Shown: positions 10,533 to 35,703 of the stretch, one piece after another
How the letters are laid out: each line of letters starts with the position of its first letter
Numbering within the stretch: the stretch's first letter is position 1
Assembly (NCBI GenBank): GCA_025360005.1
Contig: JANYDA010000024.1
Location: 1-58,592 of the forward strand
DNA length: 58,592 bases
From: Fibrobacteria bacterium
Lineage (GTDB): Bacteria > Fibrobacterota > Fibrobacteria > UBA11236
Direction of reading: 5' to 3'
The notes under the pieces: model-generated
Seen by the model: only the letters and a program-made list of their open reading frames with translations
What the model was told of the DNA's origin: nothing
Database searches by the model: none
Translations under genes and position numbers: made by a program

Positions 10533-12266
10533 TTACTCGCCTTCCAGCTTGGGCATCACGTCGCCCAAGGTGGCCGGCTGCGGCTTATGGGCGGCCAGGT
10601 AGGCTTTCCATTCCGCATCTTCCTTGTTCTTAAAGTAGTCCACCACGCTCAGCGTGAGCTTGCGCGAGGCGGCTTCGACTTCGATGACGGCGGCCGGAAC
10701 CTCGTCCCCGGCCTTGAAAGCCTCGGCGGGGCTGCGGATCGATTCGGTCGTCAGCTTGGAAGTGGGGATGAACCCTTCGATGCCGCCGGGCAATTCCGCA
10801 ATCACGCCGCGCTCCAGGAGGCGGGTGATCTTGGCATGGACTTCCGTCCCGACCGGGAACTTCTCGGCGAGGGTATCCCAGGGATCCTCTTCCAGATGCT
10901 TCATGGACAAGCTGATGCGGCGCTTCTCCTTGTCGATGGCCATGACGATGCATTCCACGCGGTCGCCCTTTTTCAGGACTTCCGAGGGGTGGTTGATCTT
11001 CTTGGTCCAGGACATGTCGGAAACGTGGATGAGACCGTCCACGCCTTCCTTGATTTCGATGAACGCGCCGAAAGCGGCCAGGTTGCGGATTTCGCCGGTA
11101 ACCTTGGAGCCCACGGGGATTTCATCCTCGATGTTCTGCCAGGGATCGGGAGTCGCCTGCTTGAGTCCGAGCGAGATCTTCTCGTTCTCCGCGTCCAACT
11201 TAAGCACCACCGCTTCCACTTCGTCGCCCTGGTTGAGGAGCTGCGAGGGATGCTTGATGTGCTGGGTCCAGGACATTTCGGAAATGTGGATGAGGCCTTC
11301 CACGCCCTGGTCCAGTTCCACGAACACGCCGTAATCCGTGATGGATACGACCTTGCCCTTGACCTTGGTGCCCTCGGGGTACTTGGCGGCCACGTCTTCC
11401 CAAGGATGCTTGGTCAGCTGCTTCATGCCGAGCGAGATGCGCTCTTTCTTCTCGTTGAAATCCAGCACCACCACCTTGACCCGGTCGCCCAGGGAAACCA
11501 CCTCGGAAGGATGGTTCACGCGGCCCCAGGACATGTCGGTGATATGGAGCAAACCGTCCACGCCGCCCAAGTCGATGAAGGCGCCGAAATCGGTGATGTT
11601 CTTGACCACGCCTTCGCGGATCTGGCCCTTCTCCAAAGTGTCGATGATTTCATCGCGCATCTTGGAACGCTCTTGCTCCAGGACCACGCGGCGCGAGACC
11701 ACGATGTTGCGGCGGATTTTATTGACCTTGATGACCTTGAAGTCCATCTTCTGGTTGATGAGCGCATCCAGATCGGGGACCTGGCGCAAATCGATCTGGG
11801 AACCGGGCAGGAAGGCTTCGATGCCGAACAGGTCGACCACGACGCCGCCCTTGATGCGGCGGGTGATGGTGCCGGTGACGATTTCTTCCTTCTCGAAGGC
11901 TTCGCGGATGCGTTCCCATACGCGCATGAAGTCCGCGCGCTGCTTGGAAAGGATGATTTGGCCGTCGGCGTTTTCCACCTGTTCCAGGTACACGTCGATG
12001 ACCTTGCCCACTACCAGCTCGGTGTCATCCTTGAATTCCATCTTGTTGATGATGCCTTCGGATTTGAAACGGATGTCGACGAAGACGTCCGTGTCCGAAA
12101 TGCGTACCACCGTGCCCTTAACGATGCTGCCTTCCTGATAGCCGGTGAGGGACATATCATAAAGCGCCAGGACATCCTGCTTGACTTGGCCGGGAGTCTT
12201 TGCGTCGACTTCCTCGCCGAAATCCTTCAAATCTTCTTCAGTGCCGTAAAGCATTTTCGTAGCCAT
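10533..12266 (-). CDS. rpsA: 30S ribosomal protein S1
   Basis: 577 residues, close to the 557 of Escherichia coli S1. Six S1/OB-fold repeats can be followed at about residues 45-110, 125-190, 210-280, 297-367, 384-454 and 470-540. Repeats 3-6 show the usual strings GAFIDLGGVDGLLHITDMSW, VFVELDQGVEGLIHISEMSW and similar. Repeats 1-2 are diverged, as expected for the ribosome-binding half. S1 binds mRNA on the 30S subunit and helps initiation on messages with weak Shine-Dalgarno sites. The start is supported by AAGGAG ten bases upstream. The gene lies downstream of cmk on the same strand, the common cmk-rpsA arrangement, with a 200-base gap containing hairpins, and is closed by its own terminator. 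Confidence 0.97.
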   Translation of the reverse strand: MATKMLYGTEEDLKDFGEEVDAKTPGQVKQDVLALYDMSLTGYQEGSIVKGTVVRISDTDVFVDIRFKSEGIINKMEFKDDTELVVGKVIDVYLEQVENADGQIILSKQRADFMRVWERIREAFEKEEIVTGTITRRIKGGVVVDLFGIEAFLPGSQIDLRQVPDLDALINQKMDFKVIKVNKIRRNIVVSRRVVLEQERSKMRDEIIDTLEKGQIREGVVKNITDFGAFIDLGGVDGLLHITDMSWGRVNHPSEVVSLGDRVKVVVLDFNEKKERISLGMKQLTKHPWEDVAAKYPEGTKVKGKVVSITDYGVFVELDQGVEGLIHISEMSWTQHIKHPSQLLNQGDEVEAVVLKLDAENEKISLGLKQATPDPWQNIEDEIPVGSKVTGEIRNLAAFGAFIEIKEGVDGLIHVSDMSWTKKINHPSEVLKKGDRVECIVMAIDKEKRRISLSMKHLEEDPWDTLAEKFPVGTEVHAKITRLLERGVIAELPGGIEGFIPTSKLTTESIRSPAEAFKAGDEVPAAVIEVEAASRKLTLSVVDYFKNKEDAEWKAYLAAHKPQPATLGDVMPKLEGE

Positions 12267-13181: not shown

Positions 13182-13211
13182 GTGGCATCGATTCCCGCGA
13201 AGGGATATAAT
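13182..13211 (+). promoter_or_regulatory. Sigma-70-type promoter of the exported-protein/C25 protease operon
   Basis: GTGGCA at 13182-13187 and a perfect TATAAT at 13206-13211 are separated by 18 bases. The start codon at 13227 lies 15 bases beyond the -10 box, so the leader would be very short. Confidence 0.55.
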
Positions 13212-26207: not shown

Positions 26208-28106
26208 TCAGGTTTCCGGTTCCGACCAGCGCCCGTGTTCCTTGATCAGGATCACCAGGGCCTCAGGCGCTTCCGCCTCGGGAATGTTCTTCTTGACCAC
26301 GTCCCGCCCCACGTACAGGTTGACCTTGTTGGGGGCGCCGCCCACATAACCGAAATCGGCGTCCGCCATCTCCCCGGGACCGTTCACGATGCAGCCCATG
26401 ATGGCGATGGAGATATTCTTGAGATGGGCCGTGCGCTGACGGATCTTCTGGGTGGTGGTCTGCAGGTCGAACAGGGTGCGGCCGCAGCTGGGACAGGCCA
26501 CGTATTCCGGTTTGGTGCGGCGCACGCCCGCGGCCTGGAGGATATCGTAGCCCAAATGCATGCAGGCCTTGGCGCCGGCGGGGCCGGACACGTGGATCAG
26601 ATCGCCGATGCCGTCCACCAGCAGGGATCCGAAGCGGGCCGCCAAAAGCATATTGCCTTCCGGGGTACCATCGCTGTTACCCCGGAGGATGATGGGATCG
26701 GGCCGGCCCTTGCCTGCCAGCCAGGCGGCCAGATAGCGGTAATGGGCGATGGGGTTGGCACCCGTGGGCCCGGAGGCCGCAGAGGTGCAGGACCAAAACA
26801 GGTGCGGAAGATTCAGGACATCGTCGGGCAATTTATCCAAGTGGACCGGATCCTGGACTTGGATTTCCAGGTTGCCGGGAAGATCGCTCAATCCCGAAAG
26901 CAGCCGCGAACTGGTCAAGGCCACCAATTGATGCTTGGTAGCGATCGCGAACTCCACGGTGCGCGGTTCCCAGACGGTGGGGAAATCCGGCCGCGTGGCA
27001 TGGGAATCGTAGGTGCCGGCCCATTCGATGCGGCGTTCCCCCTTGGGCAGGGCTTCCGAAGCCGGATCGGGCGTGCCCACGGCGATTTTCTCGCGCGCGC
27101 CGATGGCCAGACCGCCCAGATGCAGGATCGGCACCTCGCGGCGATGAAAAGCGTAAAAGTCCAAGGCCTCGGGCAGCGCCGGGCATGCGTCGATGCGGGA
27201 CAGGTCGCAGAGTTTCACCAGGGCCTTGGCCACGGGGATCTCATGCACCGGATCCTCGGTCAGGGAAACGCGGATGGTATCGCCGATTCCGTCCAACAAC
27301 AGGGCGCCGATGCCGACCGAGGATTTGAGGCGGCCGTCTTCGCCGTCGCCGGCTTCGGTCACGCCCACATGGAAGGGATACGGTTTGTGATCCTTTTCCA
27401 AACGCGCCGCCAACAGCCGGTAGGCCTGCACCACCACGCGGGGATTGGACGATTTCATGCTGAAGACGATTTGATCGAAGTTCTCCGCTTCGCATACGCG
27501 CAGGTATTCCAGCGCGGACTCGACCATGCCCTCGATGGTGTCGCCGTATTTCCACATAATGCGATCGGAAAGGGACCCATGGTTGGTGCCTATCCGCAAG
27601 CACACGCCGCGATCCTTGGCCATGCGCACTAGAGGGGCGAAAGCATCGAAAACTTTCTGCACGCCCGCGGAGAAACCTGCGTCGTCATAATCGCGCGGCG
27701 TTGCGGACTTGGAATCCACGAAGTTGCCGGGATTGATGCGCACCTTCTCCACCCACTTGACCGCTTCCATGGCGGCGCGCGGCTGGAAATGGATGTCCGC
27801 GGAAACGGGCACGTCGCAGCCCGCGGCGCGCACCTTGCGCATGATCTCCTCCAGGCACTCGGAATCCTTCTGGGTGGGCGTGGTGATGCGCACCAGCTCG
27901 CAACCGGCCCTGGCCAATTCCAGGGTCTGGAAAACGGTGGCGTCGATGTCCTTGGTGTTGGTGGTGGTCATGGACTGGACCAGGATGGGTTCATCGCCTC
28001 CGATCCATCGGTTGCCTACGCGGACCTTGAGGGTGGGACGGCGCTTGGGGGCGAAGCGATTGGAGGTGTAAAGGAGCGGATGAGTATCGGCGGATTGGCT
28101 TTGCAT
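26208..28106 (-). CDS. ispG: 4-hydroxy-3-methylbut-2-enyl diphosphate synthase, long form
   Basis: 632 residues from the ATG at 28106. It converts MEcPP to HMBPP in the non-mevalonate isoprenoid pathway. The N-terminal TIM barrel starts TLKVRVGNRWIGGDEPILVQSMTTTNTKD and contains VRINPGN. The insertion domain of about 200 residues distinguishes the long form (plants, Chlamydia, FCB bacteria) from the roughly 370-residue proteobacterial form. The [4Fe-4S] residues are seen in CPSCGRTLFD and MGCIVNGPGEMADADFGYVGG. An in-frame extension to 28334 is open but is Arg-rich, unlike the family, and crosses the divergent promoter region. It heads a run of minus-strand genes. Confidence 0.95.
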   Translation of the reverse strand: MQSQSADTHPLLYTSNRFAPKRRPTLKVRVGNRWIGGDEPILVQSMTTTNTKDIDATVFQTLELARAGCELVRITTPTQKDSECLEEIMRKVRAAGCDVPVSADIHFQPRAAMEAVKWVEKVRINPGNFVDSKSATPRDYDDAGFSAGVQKVFDAFAPLVRMAKDRGVCLRIGTNHGSLSDRIMWKYGDTIEGMVESALEYLRVCEAENFDQIVFSMKSSNPRVVVQAYRLLAARLEKDHKPYPFHVGVTEAGDGEDGRLKSSVGIGALLLDGIGDTIRVSLTEDPVHEIPVAKALVKLCDLSRIDACPALPEALDFYAFHRREVPILHLGGLAIGAREKIAVGTPDPASEALPKGERRIEWAGTYDSHATRPDFPTVWEPRTVEFAIATKHQLVALTSSRLLSGLSDLPGNLEIQVQDPVHLDKLPDDVLNLPHLFWSCTSAASGPTGANPIAHYRYLAAWLAGKGRPDPIILRGNSDGTPEGNMLLAARFGSLLVDGIGDLIHVSGPAGAKACMHLGYDILQAAGVRRTKPEYVACPSCGRTLFDLQTTTQKIRQRTAHLKNISIAIMGCIVNGPGEMADADFGYVGGAPNKVNLYVGRDVVKKNIPEAEAPEALVILIKEHGRWSEPET

Positions 28107-28327: not shown

Positions 28328-28356
28328 TTGCCAAATCCCGGCCCGGAAAATATTCT
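28328..28356 (+). promoter_or_regulatory. Promoter of the tetR/export operon
   Basis: TTGCCA at 28328-28333 and TATTCT at 28351-28356 are separated by exactly 17 bases. The predicted start of transcription falls at 28362-28364, on or next to the A of the tetR ATG at 28364, implying a leaderless message. Confidence 0.6.
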
Positions 28357-28371
28357 TAACCATATGGTTAA
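28356..28371. promoter_or_regulatory. Palindromic operator over the tetR start
   Basis: TTAACCATATGGTTAA is a perfect 16-bp palindrome that begins in the last base of the -10 box and includes the start codon. Position and symmetry fit an autoregulatory site for the TetR-family dimer encoded directly downstream, which would block polymerase when bound. Confidence 0.65.
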
Positions 28372-29137
28372 ACCAATCAGTTTATCCGATAGGACAAAAA
28401 AGCGGGCCAAAGGCGCCTCCGCCCCATCCATCCCCGCCGTTGCGCGCACCGCCAAGGGCGGCCATAAACGCCGGACGGCCACTCCCACAGCCCAGCCGGA
28501 TCCGGCCGCGGGAGAAACCGAAAAGCGTATTCTGGTGGCGGCCCGCAAGGAGTTCATCTCCAAGGGTCTGGACGGCGCGCGCATGCAAGCGGTGGCGACC
28601 CAGGCGGGCGTGAACAAAGCCTTGCTCCACTATTATTTCCGTAGCAAGGAAAAGCTTTACCAGAAGGTCCTGGAAGACACTTTGGAAACGATATGGGGGA
28701 AATTGGCGAAGGAATTCCGCGCTCAACCCCGCCAAGCGGGCCTGGAACCGCTGCTGCGCACCGTGGTGGCCACCTATGTGCATACCCTGGCCGCCAATCC
28801 GGACTTCCCGCTCTTCATGTTCCGCGAGATGGCCAACGGCAGCGCCTCCTTCCGGGACGGCATCCCGGAAATCCTCCGCCGGTTCCAGGATTTGCCCGCC
28901 ACCATCGCCGGCGCATTGGCCGCGGAAATCAAGGCGGGCAAGATCAAACCCATCCAGCCTATCCATTTCTTCATGAATATGCTGGGCATGACGGTCGCCA
29001 CCTTCCTGCTCATGCCCATGATCCAGAAACTGGGGTCCGCCTTCGGCGTCAAATCCGATTTCGGCGGCAGCTTCATGGATGAACGCATCCATTCCGTCAC
29101 CGACACCTTGCTCAACGGCATCCGGATCAAGAGGTAA
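28364..29137 (+). CDS. TetR-family transcriptional regulator of the export operon
   Basis: 257 residues from the ATG at 28364. About 45 N-terminal residues are basic and Ala/Pro-rich. The TetR DNA-binding domain follows: TEKRILVAARKEFISKGLDGARMQAVATQAGVNKALLHYYFRSKEKLYQKVLED. The C-terminal half is the variable ligand-binding domain, similar in style to CecR/YbiH-like regulators (FPLFMFREMANGS). The stop is two bases from the tolC-like start, so it is the first gene of the export operon. It probably represses itself and the operon through the palindrome over its own start and is relieved by an exported compound. The ligand is unknown. Confidence 0.88.
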   Translation: MVKPISLSDRTKKRAKGASAPSIPAVARTAKGGHKRRTATPTAQPDPAAGETEKRILVAARKEFISKGLDGARMQAVATQAGVNKALLHYYFRSKEKLYQKVLEDTLETIWGKLAKEFRAQPRQAGLEPLLRTVVATYVHTLAANPDFPLFMFREMANGSASFRDGIPEILRRFQDLPATIAGALAAEIKAGKIKPIQPIHFFMNMLGMTVATFLLMPMIQKLGSAFGVKSDFGGSFMDERIHSVTDTLLNGIRIKR

Positions 29138-29139
29138 AC

Positions 29140-30468
29140 ATGCATCCGTCCCGCGCGAAATCCTTCCTATTGTTTACCATAGCGCTGGCCGCGCGGCCGG
29201 GACATGCCCTTTCCCTGCGCGAAGCCCAGGAAATCCTCTTTCGCGACAATCCCGATCTATCCATCATGCAAATGGAGATCGAGCGTTCCCAGGATCAATT
29301 GGCGGAAGCCAAAGCCGCCTGGCTGCCGTCCGTGGACGCCTTAGGCAACTACTCCTACACCACGGAAACCAGCCATCTCAAACTCACTCTCCCCTTCCCG
29401 CCCCCCAACGGCACCAATCTCGATAAGGCCATCGGCGATCACGATAAGGTGGAGTTCGGCGTGGATGCCAGCTATGCGATCTTCACCGGATTCGCGCGCG
29501 GACGCAACGTGGATGCCAAACGCGCGGGCATGAAAGCCAAGGAGGCCCAATGGCGCGGGACCCGCAACCAGATGTCCATGCGTCTGGCCGGACTCTATTA
29601 TGCCTGGCAATTGGCGGGTACGCAGGCGGCCTACCAGGAAAAGGTATTGCAGTACTCGCGCGATCTGGAAAAGCAGTTGCAGGATTTCGTGCGCGCCGGA
29701 ACCGCGGTACGCAGCCGCGCCCTGGCGGTGGAGGCCAAGGAAAAGTCTTCCGAGGTGGAATTGCTCGCCTTCCAGAATACGCGCGACTCGCTGGCCTATG
29801 AAGTCCTCGATTTCCTGGGCGGAAGGGAATCCCAATCCGCGCAGTCCCCGGACGTCTTGGCCCGGGACACGGCGGAGCTTCCCGAACCGGATTGGTCGCA
29901 GGCGGATTCCCCGCAAAGCAGCCGCCCGGAAACGGAAGCCCTGGAACAATCCATCGCGCAGGCCCGCTATGGCAGCCAAGCCCTGTTCGGACAGAAGTTG
30001 CCCCAGCTCTACGGCCTGGCCGGCGTGCGGTACGCGAACCCGGGATTGGACCTGGCCGGCGATACCTTCATGCCCTACGGATTGCTGGGCCTGCAATTGA
30101 AATGGAATCTCTTCGACGGCGCCAGGAACGGCGCGCAGCGGAAGCAATTGGAGGTGCAGACGCGCGAGCTGCGGGAACAGGAACGCAAGCTGGAGCATGA
30201 ATGGAACAAGGCCATGCTCACGGCCAGGCTGCAGTACTCGCGCTGGGCCGCCCAGTTCGAAGCGGCCAAGTCCTCGCGGGATGCCGCGCAGGCGGCCGCA
30301 GCGGATCTGAAAAGGCAATTCGAGGCCGGCGTCGCCACCGGATTGGACTGGCTGGAATCGGAGAATAACCAAGCGAGGGCGGAAATGATGATGGAACAGG
30401 CGAGGACCATGCAGCGGCTGGCATTGCTGCAATGGCGATTCGCATCCGGAAAGGAGCTTCGATTCTGA
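29140..30468 (+). CDS. TolC-family outer-membrane efflux protein
   Basis: 442 residues; AGAGGT precedes the ATG. The signal peptide ends around PGHALS. The mature protein starts LREAQEILFRDNPDLSIMQMEIERSQDQLAEAKAAWLPSVDALGNYSY, the usual first helix of TolC/OEP proteins. A second helical repeat follows with the paired motif GLQLKWNLFDGARNGAQRKQLEVQ, and a long C-terminal coiled coil ends AGVATGLDWLESENNQARAE. It forms the outer-membrane duct for the ABC exporter encoded downstream. The stop overlaps the start of the HlyD gene by one base (TGATG). Confidence 0.9.
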   Translation: MHPSRAKSFLLFTIALAARPGHALSLREAQEILFRDNPDLSIMQMEIERSQDQLAEAKAAWLPSVDALGNYSYTTETSHLKLTLPFPPPNGTNLDKAIGDHDKVEFGVDASYAIFTGFARGRNVDAKRAGMKAKEAQWRGTRNQMSMRLAGLYYAWQLAGTQAAYQEKVLQYSRDLEKQLQDFVRAGTAVRSRALAVEAKEKSSEVELLAFQNTRDSLAYEVLDFLGGRESQSAQSPDVLARDTAELPEPDWSQADSPQSSRPETEALEQSIAQARYGSQALFGQKLPQLYGLAGVRYANPGLDLAGDTFMPYGLLGLQLKWNLFDGARNGAQRKQLEVQTRELREQERKLEHEWNKAMLTARLQYSRWAAQFEAAKSSRDAAQAAAADLKRQFEAGVATGLDWLESENNQARAEMMMEQARTMQRLALLQWRFASGKELRF

Positions 30469-31445
30469 TGGGTAACACGAAAGGTACGATACATTTCTCG
30501 GGTGCGATCACGCGGGGGAGCGCAGGCCGCGCAATCGTCGCGGGACGCGCTTTCGCCGCCAGGCGCGCGATGGCCGCGGCCGCAACCGCATTCCTGCTGG
30601 GATGCTCAGGACGCACGGATCCCGCTTTCATAGGATCCGCCGTGGTGGAAGCGCAGACTTACCAGGTTTCCGCCCAAGTGCAGGGCAAGCTGGTGGGCCT
30701 GTACAAACAGGAAGGCCAGGACGTGGCCGCGGGCGAATTGGTGGCCGTCATAGACAGCGTCCCGTTTTTCCTGCAACTGCAGGAAGCGCAAGCCGGGCTG
30801 GCCGAATTGACATCCGGCATCCGCTCGCGCGGCAACGAAATCAAAGCCTCGCAAGCGGAAATCCGCGGCCTGGAAAAGGACTATGCGCGCATCGCCCCCC
30901 TGGTCAAGGAAGGCTCGCTGCCGCCCCAACAGGAAGACAAGCTTTCCTCCGCCTTGGATGCGGCGCGCCTGAAACTCGCGGCCGGCAGGGACATGCTGCA
31001 AAGCCTGGGCGGCAAGCAGCAAGGCATCGAAGCGCGCATGGCCCAGATCCGCGAGCAGTTGCACCGCTGCTACCTGCGCGCGCCCGCGCCCGGACGCATC
31101 CTCACCCGCTATAAGAATCCGGAGGAGGTGGCCGCGCCCGGCCAACCCGTCTATGAGATAGGCCAGGAGGATACCTTGCGGGTGGACTTCTTCGTCCCCG
31201 AGACCTGGTTGTCCGGCCTCAAATACGGACAGGCTGTGCGGCTGCGCCTGGACTCCCCCGGAGGGGATAAGCAGGCAATCTTTCTGCCGGCCACCATCAG
31301 CTGGATAGGCCATGAGGCCGAGTTCTCGCCCAAGAACATCCAGACCCGGGAAAGCCGCAATGAGTTGGTCTTCCGCGTGCGTGCGCTGGCGCCCAATAAA
31401 GACGGCATGCTCAAGCGGGGGTTGCCGGTGGAAGTCTGGAAATGA
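30468..31445 (+). CDS. HlyD/YbhG-type membrane fusion lipoprotein
   Basis: 325 residues from the ATG at 30468, overlapping the tolC-like stop by one base. A long basic N-terminus and hydrophobic stretch end in the lipobox FLLGC, so the mature protein is probably lipid-anchored. The biotinyl-lipoyl half-motifs YQVSAQVQGKLVGLYKQEGQDVAAGELVAVID and LRAPAPGRILTRYKNPEEVAAPGQPVYEI flank a coiled-coil hairpin (about 105-190). The beta-barrel region LRVDFFVPETWLSGLKYGQ follows. It bridges the inner-membrane ABC transporter and the TolC duct, like YbhG. An AT-rich inverted repeat begins directly after the stop codon. Confidence 0.9.
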   Translation: MGNTKGTIHFSGAITRGSAGRAIVAGRAFAARRAMAAAATAFLLGCSGRTDPAFIGSAVVEAQTYQVSAQVQGKLVGLYKQEGQDVAAGELVAVIDSVPFFLQLQEAQAGLAELTSGIRSRGNEIKASQAEIRGLEKDYARIAPLVKEGSLPPQQEDKLSSALDAARLKLAAGRDMLQSLGGKQQGIEARMAQIREQLHRCYLRAPAPGRILTRYKNPEEVAAPGQPVYEIGQEDTLRVDFFVPETWLSGLKYGQAVRLRLDSPGGDKQAIFLPATISWIGHEAEFSPKNIQTRESRNELVFRVRALAPNKDGMLKRGLPVEVWK

Positions 31446-31602
31446 AGAGAGAATTCAAAGTGGAAAATGCAAAGTGCCAAAATTCAAGAAGGGAAGCGCC
31501 TGGCATGACTGCGGCGCGCAACGAGGACTTGAGGCGCCTTCTTCCGAATTCTCTTCCTCTTCATTTTTCACTTTGCATTTTGCACTTTGATTTTTGCCTT
31601 TC
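31446..31602. repeat. AT-rich imperfect inverted repeat inside the export operon
   Basis: The arms contain CAAAGTGGAAAATGCAAAGTG (31456-31476) and, inverted, CACTTTGCATTTTGCACTTTG (31569-31589). GAATTC and a GGCGCC-containing inner stem are also mirrored. The whole can fold into a long hairpin with the centre near 31515. It fills most of the 172-base gap between the HlyD gene and the first ATPase, in contrast to the overlaps elsewhere in the operon. Related AT-rich text lies at 53687-53735. It looks like a small dispersed repeat. Confidence 0.75.
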
Positions 31603-31617
31603 CTCCCCTGGAGCGGT

Positions 31618-32673
31618 ATGGAACCGGCGGTAAGGATCGCGTCCCTCGCCAAGGATCACGCCGGTGAACGCGCTTTGCGCGGCATCAGCCTGGACATTCC
31701 CGATCCCTGCCTGTTCGGCATCATCGGCGCGGACGGCGCGGGCAAATCCACTTTGATGAACATCCTGGCCACGCTTACGGACGCGGACTCCGGCAGCGTG
31801 CGCGCGCTGGGACGCGACCTGGCCGAGGAATTCCCCGCTATCCGCAAGGACATCGGCTATATGCCCCAGCGCTTCTCCCTCTACCAGGATCTCTCCGTGG
31901 GCGAAAACCTAGATTTCTTCGCGGACATATTCGGGATATCGGGAAAAGCGAAAGCCGATCGCATGGATCATCTGCTGGCGTTCGCGGGATTGCAGACCTT
32001 CAAGAACCGCCGCGCCGGATTGCTCTCCGGCGGCATGAAACAGAAACTGGCGTTGGCCTGCACTTTGATCCACCATCCCAAACTGCTTCTCCTCGATGAA
32101 CCCACCGTGGGCGTGGATCCGGTGGCGCGGCGCGATTTCTGGAGCATGCTGAAATCCCTGCGCGCGGACGGCATCACCTTGGTGGTTTCCACACCCTACA
32201 TGGACGAGGCCTCGCTCTGCGATTCCCTGGTGTTGCTGCACGAAGGGGGGATCCTGGCGCAGGGCCCGCCTGCGCAATTGGTGGCGGCCTATCCCTTCGA
32301 TTTATTCAGGGTGGAAGCCTCGCCGGAGGCGCGCGTGACCACCTTGAACTATCCCGGCAGCCAGGAGCCGCCTCCCGGCTTCGCGCTGGTTTACCCTTCG
32401 GGGGGATCCTTGCATGCGGCCGAGTCGCTTACCGCCTCCCGGCGGGACGGCGCCGCAGTAACCGCTGAGGCAACCTCGGAGATCCCGGGGGTACAATCCG
32501 AAGACCGCTTCCGCCGGTTGCGATCGGCGATTCCGCAAGCCCATACCGTTACCCGCATCGAGCCGGCCCTGGAAGATTGTTTCTTCGCCCTCTTGTCGGG
32601 CAGGATGCGCATGGGGCCGAAATTGCCGCCGGATCCAGCCCCGGCGGAGGCGCCCCCGGGAGGGGAGTCCTGA
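31618..32673 (+). CDS. ABC transporter ATP-binding protein (first YbhF half)
   Basis: 351 residues from the ATG at 31618, with GGAG six bases upstream. Walker A is GADGAGKST at about residue 37, the Q-loop region is IGYMPQRFSLYQDLSVGEN, the signature LSGGMKQK, Walker B LLLLDEPTVGVDP and the switch region VVSTPYMDEASLC. The usual switch His is replaced (VVSTPY instead of a TSH-like string), as seen in the N-terminal half of YbhF-like ATPases. About 130 C-terminal residues follow the ATPase. It powers drug-type export together with the next gene. In Escherichia coli YbhF these two ATPases are one fused chain; here they are separate, with a one-base overlap. Confidence 0.92.
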   Translation: MEPAVRIASLAKDHAGERALRGISLDIPDPCLFGIIGADGAGKSTLMNILATLTDADSGSVRALGRDLAEEFPAIRKDIGYMPQRFSLYQDLSVGENLDFFADIFGISGKAKADRMDHLLAFAGLQTFKNRRAGLLSGGMKQKLALACTLIHHPKLLLLDEPTVGVDPVARRDFWSMLKSLRADGITLVVSTPYMDEASLCDSLVLLHEGGILAQGPPAQLVAAYPFDLFRVEASPEARVTTLNYPGSQEPPPGFALVYPSGGSLHAAESLTASRRDGAAVTAEATSEIPGVQSEDRFRRLRSAIPQAHTVTRIEPALEDCFFALLSGRMRMGPKLPPDPAPAEAPPGGES

Positions 32674-33416
32674 TGGAATATTCCATCCGCACCGAACATC
32701 TTACCAAGAGCTTCGGGAGCTTTCTCGCGGTGGATCATATCGACGTCTCGGTGGCCAAGGGCGAGGTATTCGGATTCCTGGGCGCCAACGGCGCAGGCAA
32801 GACCACGGCCATCCGCATGCTGTGCGGCCTATTGGCGCCCACCTCCGGGCGCGGAACGGTGGCCGGCTTCGACATCATCAGGGAGAGCGAGAAGATCCGC
32901 ACCCGCATCGGCTATATGTCGCAGAAATTCTCCCTGTATCCGGATCTGAGCGTGGGCCAGAACCTGCGCCTGTACGGGCGCCTGTACGGATTGGGGAGCA
33001 AGGATCTGGAAGCGCGCATCCGCGAGATGGCCGCTTTCCTGGGACTTGAGGAATTGCTGAAAAGGGTAACCGGTTCGTTACCTTGGGGCTGGCAGCAACG
33101 CCTTAGCCTGGCCTGCGCCAACCTGCACAGGCCGGAAATCCTGTTCCTGGACGAGCCTACCGGCTCCGTCGATCCCGTGAGCCGGCGCAATTTCTGGGAT
33201 CTGATCCACCGCCTGTCGGAACAGGGAACCACCATTTTCATCACCTCCCATTACATGGACGAAGTGGAATATTGCCATCGCTTGTCCATCATGATCGACG
33301 GCCGCGTGGCGGCCATGGGCACGCCGCGGGAATTGAAGCGGGATAGCGGCTGCGCCACCATCCATGAACTGTTCCTGAAACTGGTGGAAAAGAAACCGGC
33401 GGGAGCAGCGGCATGA
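32673..33416 (+). CDS. ABC transporter ATP-binding protein (second YbhF half)
   Basis: 247 residues from the ATG at 32673, which shares one base with the stop of the first ATPase. Walker A is GANGAGKTT, the Q-loop region GYMSQKFSLYPDLSVGQN, Walker B ILFLDEPTGSVDP, and the switch His is present in FITSHYMDEVEYC. The signature is altered to SLPWGWQQRLSLA, with no LSGGQ. The same position reads LPLG-like in the C-terminal half of YbhF proteins, so this is a family trait rather than damage. It presumably pairs with the first ATPase, giving composite sites with unequal activity. The stop overlaps the permease start (ATGA). Confidence 0.92.
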   Translation: MEYSIRTEHLTKSFGSFLAVDHIDVSVAKGEVFGFLGANGAGKTTAIRMLCGLLAPTSGRGTVAGFDIIRESEKIRTRIGYMSQKFSLYPDLSVGQNLRLYGRLYGLGSKDLEARIREMAAFLGLEELLKRVTGSLPWGWQQRLSLACANLHRPEILFLDEPTGSVDPVSRRNFWDLIHRLSEQGTTIFITSHYMDEVEYCHRLSIMIDGRVAAMGTPRELKRDSGCATIHELFLKLVEKKPAGAAA

Positions 33417-34522
33417 TAGCCCGCGGCCGCCTAATCAGCATCGCCCGCAAGGAAATGCGGCATATCTTCCGCGACTGGCAGACCTTGGTGGTGGTGCTGG
33501 TGATGCCGGTGATGATGATGTTCCTCTACGGCTATGCCTTGAATGCGGACGCGAAGGAAATCCCCGTCCTCATCGAGATGCCTTCCCCCGATCCGGAAAC
33601 CCGGGCCGTGGCCGATAAGATCGATGCCAGCCAATTGTTCGCCGTCCGGGGCGTGGTCGCAACCGCCGCCGATCCGGCCGAGCTTTTCAAGCTCCACAAT
33701 ATCAAGGCCCTGATCCGGTTCCCGCCGGGCTTCGCGCGCGATCTGCGCCGGCCGGGCGGGACGCGCGTCCAAGTGCTCATCGATGGGTCCGATCCCAACC
33801 TGGGCACCATCATCCGTAACGCAGCCGAACCCTTGCTGCTGGGCGCCACCCTGCAAGTGTTGGGCGTGGAGCAGCCCAAGGTCCTGGACTTGCGCACCTT
33901 GGTCCTCTACAACCCTGAGCAAAGCAGCGCCCTGTTTTTCGTGCCCGGATTGATGGCCGTGATACTGCTGATGATTTCCGCGCTGCTCACCTCCGTGGCC
34001 ATTGCGCGCGAAAAGGAATTGGGCACCATGGGGCAATTGCTGGTCTCCCCGTTGCGGCCCCTGGAAATCATCGTGGGCAAAATCATACCCTACGTGTTCC
34101 TTGCCGCCGTGGACGGCCTCTTGATCATGACGGTGGGCCGACTGGCCTTCGGGGTGAAGATCGCCGGCAATCCCTGGCTGCTGGCCACGTGCAGCCTGGT
34201 CTATATCTTCACCGCGCTCAGCATAGGCCTGCTCATCAGCACCTTGGTCAAGCGCCAGCAGCATGCCATGTTCGCCGCCCTGGGCGCCACCATGATGCCT
34301 ACCGTGCTGCTTTCGGGATTCATCTTCCCGGTGGCCAGCATGCCCCTGCAACTGCAAATCGTTTCCCATCTCATCCCCGCCACCTACTTCCTGGAAATAG
34401 TCCGGGGCATCATCCTCAAGGGCGTGGGCATCCATGAGCTGTGGCGGCCGCTGCTTATCCTATCGTTCGAAGGCATGCTGCTGATGGCCATCGCCATCAG
34501 GAAGTTCAAGGTGAAGCTATGA
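33413..34522 (+). CDS. ABC-2 type permease (YbhS-like)
   Basis: 369 residues. The first membrane helix is at about 20-42 (TLVVVLVMPVMMMFLYGYAL). A large periplasmic domain covers about 45-175, and five hydrophobic segments follow from about 180 on (PGLMAVILLMISALLTSVAI onwards), with the coupling-type motif REKELGTMGQLLVSPLRPLEIIVGKIIPY. The C-terminal helix ends IAIRKFKVKL. This is the usual architecture of YbhS/YbhR/YadH-type exporters. Start and stop overlap both neighbours by four bases. It probably forms a heterodimer with the next gene. Confidence 0.92.
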   Translation: MIARGRLISIARKEMRHIFRDWQTLVVVLVMPVMMMFLYGYALNADAKEIPVLIEMPSPDPETRAVADKIDASQLFAVRGVVATAADPAELFKLHNIKALIRFPPGFARDLRRPGGTRVQVLIDGSDPNLGTIIRNAAEPLLLGATLQVLGVEQPKVLDLRTLVLYNPEQSSALFFVPGLMAVILLMISALLTSVAIAREKELGTMGQLLVSPLRPLEIIVGKIIPYVFLAAVDGLLIMTVGRLAFGVKIAGNPWLLATCSLVYIFTALSIGLLISTLVKRQQHAMFAALGATMMPTVLLSGFIFPVASMPLQLQIVSHLIPATYFLEIVRGIILKGVGIHELWRPLLILSFEGMLLMAIAIRKFKVKL

Positions 34523-35703
34523 ACCTGTTCCGCGTCATCGTACTCAAGGAATTCCAGCAACTGGCGCGTGACAGGACCAGCCTGCGCCTGATGATCATGA
34601 TGCCCATGGTGCAGATGATGGTGCTGGGTTACGCGCTCACCACGGAAGTGAAGCATACGCCCGTGGCCGTGGTCGATCATGACGGCGGCCCAGTGGGCCG
34701 ATCCCTGATCCAGGCCATATCCAACAACGCGCTCTTCACCTACAAGGGCAATGTGAACTCGGAGGGCGAGCTGCGGGAAAGGCTCGATCGCGGCGAAGTG
34801 AAATTGGGCCTGATCATCCCGGGTGATTTTTCCCGGCAGTTGGAACTGGCCACGCGTCTCACCCCAGGCGCCTCCGGCGCGGCGGCACTGGGAGCGGGAA
34901 GCAAGGGCTCCGGCGCGCAAATCCAATTGTGGGTGGATGGCCAGGATGCCAATTCCGCCGGCGTGGCGCGCGGCTACCTTTCCGCCGTGCTCAACCAATG
35001 GGCCACGCGCAATCTGAGCACGCGCCTGGAAGCGGCCGGCATCCGCATGGATCAGCTCATCCCCATCGTCACCGACGCCAGCGTGCTTTTCAATCCGCTC
35101 CTGAAATCCACCTGGTATATGATACCGGGCATCGCCGTCATCCTGGTCACCATGGTCACGGCTCTGCTCACCGGCTTTTCCATCGTGCGGGAAAAGGAGT
35201 CGGGCACGCTGGAGCAATTGATGGTCACGCCGCTCAAACCCATCCACGTGGTGGTGGGCAAGGCCGTGCCGTTCTTCTTCATCGGCGTAGCGGAACTGAT
35301 GATCGCTTTGGGCATAGCCCAGATCTGGTTCCGGGTCCCTTTCCGCGGCAACTACCTCACCTTGATCGCTTTCACGGGGATTTACATGCTGTCCTCGCTG
35401 GGCATAGGCATCTTCACTTCCACGGTGGCGCGCACGCAACAGCAGGCCCTGTTCATCATCTGGTTCTTCCTCCTCTTCTTCATGCTGCTGTCCGGTTTCT
35501 TCCTGCCGGTGGAGAACATGCCCCATTGGGTGCAAATCGTGACGCTGGGCAATCCCGTGCGTTGGTTCATGCATGTGCTGCGGGAGATGTTCCTGAAGGG
35601 ATCCGGTTTTCCGGAATTGTGGCGGGAAGCCCTGGCCATGCTCGCCATCGGCTTCACGGTATTCACCTTTTCGGTGCTGAAGTTCAACCGCAAGGCGGGC
35701 TGA
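34519..35703 (+). CDS. ABC-2 type permease (YbhR-like)
   Basis: 394 residues from the ATG at 34519, four bases into the previous stop. It has the same plan as the preceding permease: N-terminal helix (LRLMIMMPMVQMMVLGYAL), periplasmic domain to about 195, then helices starting WYMIPGIAVILVTMVTALL with the motif REKESGTLEQLMVTPLKPIHVVVGKAVPFF. It contains a Gly/Ala/Ser-rich insert near residue 115-135. It is the last gene of the export operon and nearly touches the convergent TPR-like lipoprotein gene. The substrate is unknown; related systems export cations or hydrophobic drugs. Confidence 0.92.
   Translation: MNLFRVIVLKEFQQLARDRTSLRLMIMMPMVQMMVLGYALTTEVKHTPVAVVDHDGGPVGRSLIQAISNNALFTYKGNVNSEGELRERLDRGEVKLGLIIPGDFSRQLELATRLTPGASGAAALGAGSKGSGAQIQLWVDGQDANSAGVARGYLSAVLNQWATRNLSTRLEAAGIRMDQLIPIVTDASVLFNPLLKSTWYMIPGIAVILVTMVTALLTGFSIVREKESGTLEQLMVTPLKPIHVVVGKAVPFFFIGVAELMIALGIAQIWFRVPFRGNYLTLIAFTGIYMLSSLGIGIFTSTVARTQQQALFIIWFFLLFFMLLSGFFLPVENMPHWVQIVTLGNPVRWFMHVLREMFLKGSGFPELWREALAMLAIGFTVFTFSVLKFNRKAG

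Follow-up and report, generated by a model that had tools for sequence, protein, structure and literature searches.

The segment at positions 28328-28384 of the window (the whole 58,592-nt stretch of Fibrobacteria DNA that was analysed) very probably acts as both promoter and operator for an autorepressed exporter operon, whose transcript starts without a leader at the ATG of the first gene, tetR, and whose RutR-like repressor is released by a ligand. A sigma-70-type polymerase would start transcription at, or at most 1 base from, the tetR ATG and thereby produce a leaderless mRNA. Without ligand, a dimer of the RutR-like TetR protein would occupy TTAACCATATGGTTAA, spanning about -8 to +8, and a second dimer would probably sit on an overlapping site 13 bp downstream, over codons 2-7. 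By covering -8 to about +20, the repressor would keep RNA polymerase from binding to or opening the only promoter found. Judging from the protein family, a ligand, presumably an export substrate, would then free the operator of repressor.

A preliminary description of this DNA proposed that one site blocks both the polymerase and initiation. Our analysis retains the occlusion of the polymerase and drops a separate translation block, as a DNA-bound dimer would not stop ribosomes. What a DNA-bound TetR dimer obstructs is RNA polymerase alone, and thus 'polymerase and initiation' would be a single event. With transcription starting at the ATG, the mRNA would contain just half of the palindrome.

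The sequence elements were found exactly as previously described, with TTGCCA and TATTCT separated by a 17-nt spacer (28328-28356), followed by the palindrome and the ATG (Table 1). The last T of TATTCT also belongs to the palindrome, and the tetR ATG is at its centre. As seven bases separate the -10 element from the ATG, transcription is predicted to start (+1) at the A of this codon. The proposed start at the tetR ATG is a prediction backed by a promoter spacing that is kept across Fibrobacterota loci, and a leaderless, autorepressed tetR transcript is well supported, with its 5' end predicted from that spacing. No Shine-Dalgarno sequence is present at the usual distance before the ATG, the nearest candidate, GGAAAA, ending 13 nt upstream. 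We considered the TTG at 28328 as the true tetR start and rejected it, because the reading frame upstream of 28364 shows no conservation among orthologues and this TTG belongs to the -35 element.

Table 1. Features of the tetR promoter-operator region and of the downstream export operon (window coordinates).
Feature	Position	Strand	Basis or remarks
-35 element TTGCCA	28328..28333	+	Sequence; TTG 36-39 nt 5' of ATG in aligned Fibrobacterota loci L003-L007, L010, L011, L014
-10 element TATTCT	28351..28356	+	Promoter scan; predicted +1 = 28364
Core operator TTAACCATATGGTTAA	28356..28371	.	TTRACCA-N2-TGGTYAA conserved in 42/47 representatives <50% identity
tetR start codon, predicted mRNA 5' end	28364..28366	+	Within operator core; MVKP N-terminus and codons kept in orthologues
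Second overlapping site TAAACCA-AT-CAGTTTA	28369..28384	.	13 bp downstream, codons 2-7; information profile
Distal half-site	28378..28384	.	5/7 to consensus in window; TAGTTTA, 6/7, in sister species
tetR-family repressor, 257 aa	28364..29137	+	Residues 1-45 predicted disordered; rest predicted TetR fold nearest RutR
Outer-membrane efflux protein (TolC-like)	29140..30468	+	PF02321
HlyD/YbhG-like periplasmic adaptor, exact start uncertain	30432..31445	+	PF13437; NCBIfam NF002939 99 bits, below cut-off
ABC ATPase A, exact start uncertain	31594..32673	+	PF00005
ABC ATPase B	32670..33416	+	PF00005
ABC-2 permease 1	33413..34522	+	PF12698
ABC-2 permease 2	34519..35703	+	PF12698

Taken separately, neither the promoter nor the palindrome is significant, because both are near chance level. 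Scanning 9 kb yielded 2 such promoter sites, compared with 2.3 in shuffled sequences. Perfect 16-bp palindromes occur four times in the window and ten times in 239 kb of genome (~1 per 24 kb), where 3.6 are expected at 4^-8. We thus discarded both scores as stand-alone evidence. It is the comparison with homologues, described below, that makes the predicted pairing of promoter and palindrome solid. In the same 239 kb, with crude gene calls, leaderless-type promoter starts are enriched (4 observed, 0.25 expected), and Shine-Dalgarno runs are modestly above control. Two other candidate leaderless starts, with promoter elements 8 nt before an ATG, are found on the minus strand of the window (TTGACG-N18-TATCAT, position 13211 on the reverse complement) and on the minus strand of L129 (TTGTCC-N17-TATACT, position 11438 on the reverse complement).

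The palindrome occurs only once in the 4.98-Mb genome, where one-mismatch copies are absent and 2-mismatch matches are fewer than those of a reversed-pattern control. A wider regulon for the TetR regulator was thus rejected on the basis of this genome-wide site search.

Orthologous tetR loci of the genus, the order and the class share the same layout. Their -35 elements lie ~36-39 nt before the ATG, their -10 elements end 6-9 nt before it (L003-L007, L010, L012 and L014; 10 nt in L137), and TTRACCA-N2-TGGTTAA is centred on the ATG. Ten Fibrobacterota loci have the ATG within the palindrome, and in nine of them the predicted +1 is at most 2 nt from it (L003-L007, L010, L012, L014 and L136), the distance being at most 3 nt in L137. 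The promoter-operator of L010 reads TTGACA-N17-TATTAT-TTGACCATATGGTTAA, the -10 element and operator of L012 read TATAAT-TTGACTATATGGTTAA, and L007 also has TATAAT. Two sister species have an imperfect left arm, which reads TTACCCA in L004 and TTTACCA in L005. In a sister genus, called g2 here, an altered palindrome keeps its position after the -10 element, and the ATG is farther downstream in L008 and L009, from which leaders of 16-26 nt are predicted.

When 168 Fibrobacterota genomes were scanned directly for the motif, exact TTRACCANATGGTTAAA was detected in 11 of them, with 0 control matches. The scan revealed two further tetR genes, in other Fibrobacterota families, that start with MVKP at the site; some of the remaining matches do not adjoin such a tetR gene. 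In L138 (positions 1200-1240), from another Fibrobacterota family, the core ATG starts a six-codon mini-ORF, MVKLKG-stop, that precedes tetR, and the tetR gene has its own ATG within a later ATGGTTAA half-site. The L014 regulator has a similar HTH and a quite different C-terminal part; its promoter is TTGACA-N18-TATGAT, with TTAACTAAATGGTTAA over the ATG. Lastly, the order-level orthologue L036 keeps the leaderless operator, and a search of the 3.5 kb downstream detected no relative of the window exporter genes, so the target of its regulator may differ.

Searching 85,000 genomes at the protein level, we collected 80 additional loci, mostly from Bacteroidota. With the family loci added, the set was thinned to 47 representatives at <50% identity from Fibrobacterota, Bacteroidota and other phyla, two of which came from the motif scan itself. 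TTRACCA-N2-TGGTYAA was found near the start, with at least 12 of 14 positions matching, in 42 of these 47 representatives, where shuffled sequences gave an expectation of 0.14. The site is absent from all 19 of the more distant TetR genes compared, whose motif scores reach 10/14 at most. This comparison supports both the operator identity and the autoregulatory geometry put forward in the preliminary description. In other phyla the operator also follows the promoter, with the ATG 13, 26 or more bases farther down. Based on these alignments, the operator itself is conserved across several phyla, and the start codon inside its core is a lineage variant.

The predicted operator reaches past the core palindrome into tetR codons 5-7, a feature missed by the earlier account, as were the constancy of codons 2-8 and the RutR-like nature of both regulator and site. 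Of 79 loci, 53 (24 of 42 after thinning) have a TRGTTAA half-site, matching at least 6 of 7 positions, whose offset is exactly +22; nine have one at +35, and every other offset is represented by at most two. The half-site step is therefore 13 bp, with TTAA common to two overlapping palindromes. QacR, CprB and other TetR proteins that occupy their operators as pairs of dimers have sites of 22-32 bp (PMC4150764). The 29-bp extended operator of the window matches this length, which makes two dimers plausible, a number suggested by the half-site spacing in the sequence.

The regulator belongs to the TetR family according to its match to PF00440, the N-terminal TetR HTH (52.9 bits, cut-off 24), and its structure model has an all-helical TetR fold (pLDDT 86). 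Its closest match is RutR, whether judged by profile, by PDB sequence or by fold (top seven Foldseek rows). Nevertheless, a score of 65.1 bits against the RutR profile TIGR03613 (cut-off 368) places it outside RutR membership. Orthology with CecR, suggested by the likeness of the operons, was also rejected (CecR profile, 23.3 bits; cut-off 365). The RutR-like features of the locus are the palindromic box TTRACCA-N2-TGGTYAA and Lys85, which occupies the position of RutR Lys52. The consensus of the RutR box is TTGACCAnnTGGTCAA. Escherichia coli RutR is thus like the window regulator in its DNA-reading Lys and in a roughly 16-bp palindrome, and the E. coli rutA-rutR intergenic region harbours TGGACTAAACGGTCAA, an 11/14 match to the window motif. 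In contrast, RutR is a multi-target pyrimidine regulator that binds uracil and controls pyrimidine catabolism, whereas the window site is single-copy at an exporter operon. A guanine contact has been suggested for RutR Lys52 (PMC10891134). Lys85 is replaced by His in three loci of g2, and the g2 operators have TTAACAA/TTGTTAA-like arms instead of TTAACCA/TGGTTAA, which alters the GG/CC step. No locus with His at position 85 has the usual site, and no locus with Lys85 has an altered GG/CC step. These observations are suggestive of Lys85 being the DNA-reading residue matched to the GG/CC step, and only suggestive, as the Lys/His swap represents one evolutionary event.

Because the operator is also the gene start, operator DNA would fix the initial codons of tetR and with them the MVKPxS peptide. 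When codon constancy was compared across five species of the genus, the synonymous codon was unchanged in 94% of same-residue comparisons for codons 2-8, versus 57% for the remainder of the gene; these codons include some that are rare in the genome, such as AGT (4.8% of Ser) and TTA (2.3% of Leu). Loci with the ATG in the core have MVKP, down to 33% protein identity (L012), and L008, L009 and L011, all of which have a changed site, lack it. Given this synonymous constancy, the MVKP N-terminus appears to be largely a by-product of operator DNA. The AT-rich conserved first codons could also partly serve the translation of a leaderless mRNA.

Among ~82 loci, 11 have their first in-frame ATG at +8, 18 at +21 and five at +34, although some of these calls are uncertain, as in L069, where a later ATG is preceded by AAGGAGG. 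These offsets match the 13-bp register, and the context of the ATG is often ATGGTTAA. A consensus distal half-site would place an in-frame TAA stop at +26. Of 23 loci in which the core ATG is present without being the first in-frame start, 14 have a stop codon at +26. Of the 11 loci that start at the core ATG, eight have TTA or CAA at this position; the absence of a stop in these 11 is required by definition, and the informative part is the preservation of most of the half-site by the replacement codons. We thus somewhat favour a broader model, in which a cross-phylum subfamily of RutR-like TetR proteins would control YbhFSR-type exporters through an operator with a 13-bp register, the tetR start having moved between half-sites and the operator dictating the N-terminal peptide.

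The exporter operon that had been described 3' of tetR was recovered by Pfam domains, with genes for a channel, an adaptor, two ABC ATPases and two ABC-2 permeases. Two bases separate tetR from the outer-membrane channel gene, and an adaptor-like gene is found downstream of tetR in 66 of the 80 homologous loci. Between the adaptor and ATPase A genes, an element at positions 31445-31600 of the window contains inverted repeats with 37-nt arms (81% complementary; RNA fold z = -3.8). Related arms occur at more than 20 genomic locations, which suggests a REP/MITE-type element. With this inverted repeat inside the operon, one transcript for the whole operon, and hence common control of all six exporter genes, is likely rather than certain. 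On the other side of tetR, the divergent ispG gene (long GcpE form, 26208-28103) is a conserved neighbour in the family loci; ispG was not found beside tetR in the homologous loci examined from other phyla.

An unlikely alternative is that the operator is genuine and the tetR mRNA nevertheless has a leader, the true promoter lying farther upstream and the match at 28328-28356 being fortuitous. The chance-level score of the promoter by itself is consistent with this explanation, as are L008 and L009 of g2, where the ATG lies beyond the same operator and the leader is predicted to measure 16-26 nt. However, the spacing of the -35 element, the -10 element and the ATG is kept despite quite different spacer sequences, and near-consensus elements are present in orthologues (TTGACA-N17-TATTAT in L010, TATAAT in L007 and L012). 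The operator also stays just after the -10 element even where the ATG moves. These observations argue for the leaderless promoter-operator.

Two other explanations appear very improbable, to a similar degree. The palindrome might be kept only for the MVKPxSL peptide or for an AT-rich mRNA start, with no binding of a repressor, and indeed the conserved bases from 28364 on are coding. Yet the upstream half is conserved although non-coding, the same 16 bp precede ATGs in other phyla, where they are non-coding, and MVKP is lost in L008, L009 and L011, where the site changed. Alternatively, another regulator might bind the site, or the site might mainly control ispG, as its divergent position in the family loci would allow. 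However, other phyla keep the site with tetR and no ispG nearby, the ispG start is ~250 bp distant, and the single-copy site changes along with the DNA-reading residue of the regulator. Binding by the RutR-like TetR protein itself thus remains our preferred interpretation.

There are precedents for leaderless, autorepressed tetR operons that have their operator at the promoter. In the acuR-acuI-dddL operon of Rhodobacter sphaeroides, the transcript was mapped experimentally to start exactly at the AUG (PMC3017554). AcuR is similarly a TetR-family autorepressor encoded first in its operon, without a Shine-Dalgarno sequence, with an inverted-repeat operator and with conservation in other taxa (PMC3017554); likewise, no Shine-Dalgarno sequence precedes the regulator gene at 28364. 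Nevertheless, the AcuR operator, TAATAGAC-n6-GTCTATTA, overlaps the promoter, whereas that of the window lies across +1, is centred on the ATG and extends into codons 2-7. Neither the AcuR operator nor an acuI neighbour occurs in the window, where the palindrome is different, the operon encodes an exporter and the regulator belongs to a different subfamily. A leaderless tet repressor mRNA is also cited for Tn1721 tetR (Klock and Hillen 1986, cited in PMC3017554), and, as far as that citation goes, its operator and operon differ from those of the window. E. coli CecR (YbiH) and ybhGFSR resemble the window in the succession of genes for a TetR regulator, an adaptor, an ABC ATPase and two ABC-2 permeases (PMC7190983). 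In contrast with ybiH-ybhGFSR, the window operon adds a channel gene, has its ATPases as two genes and encodes a regulator that is no CecR orthologue.

Non-exhaustive literature searches yielded nothing relevant on the motif or on Fibrobacter transcription starts. What appears to be new is the cross-phylum operator of this subfamily, its 13-bp half-site register and the presence of the start codon in different half-sites. The locus would thus represent a compact and testable autoregulatory switch in a little-studied phylum, and an example of regulatory DNA fixing the first residues of a protein. It would also illustrate a route to a leaderless start, by a shift of the start codon within an operator. 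As this operator is recognizable across phyla, it may enable target prediction for a large, uncharacterized TetR subfamily.
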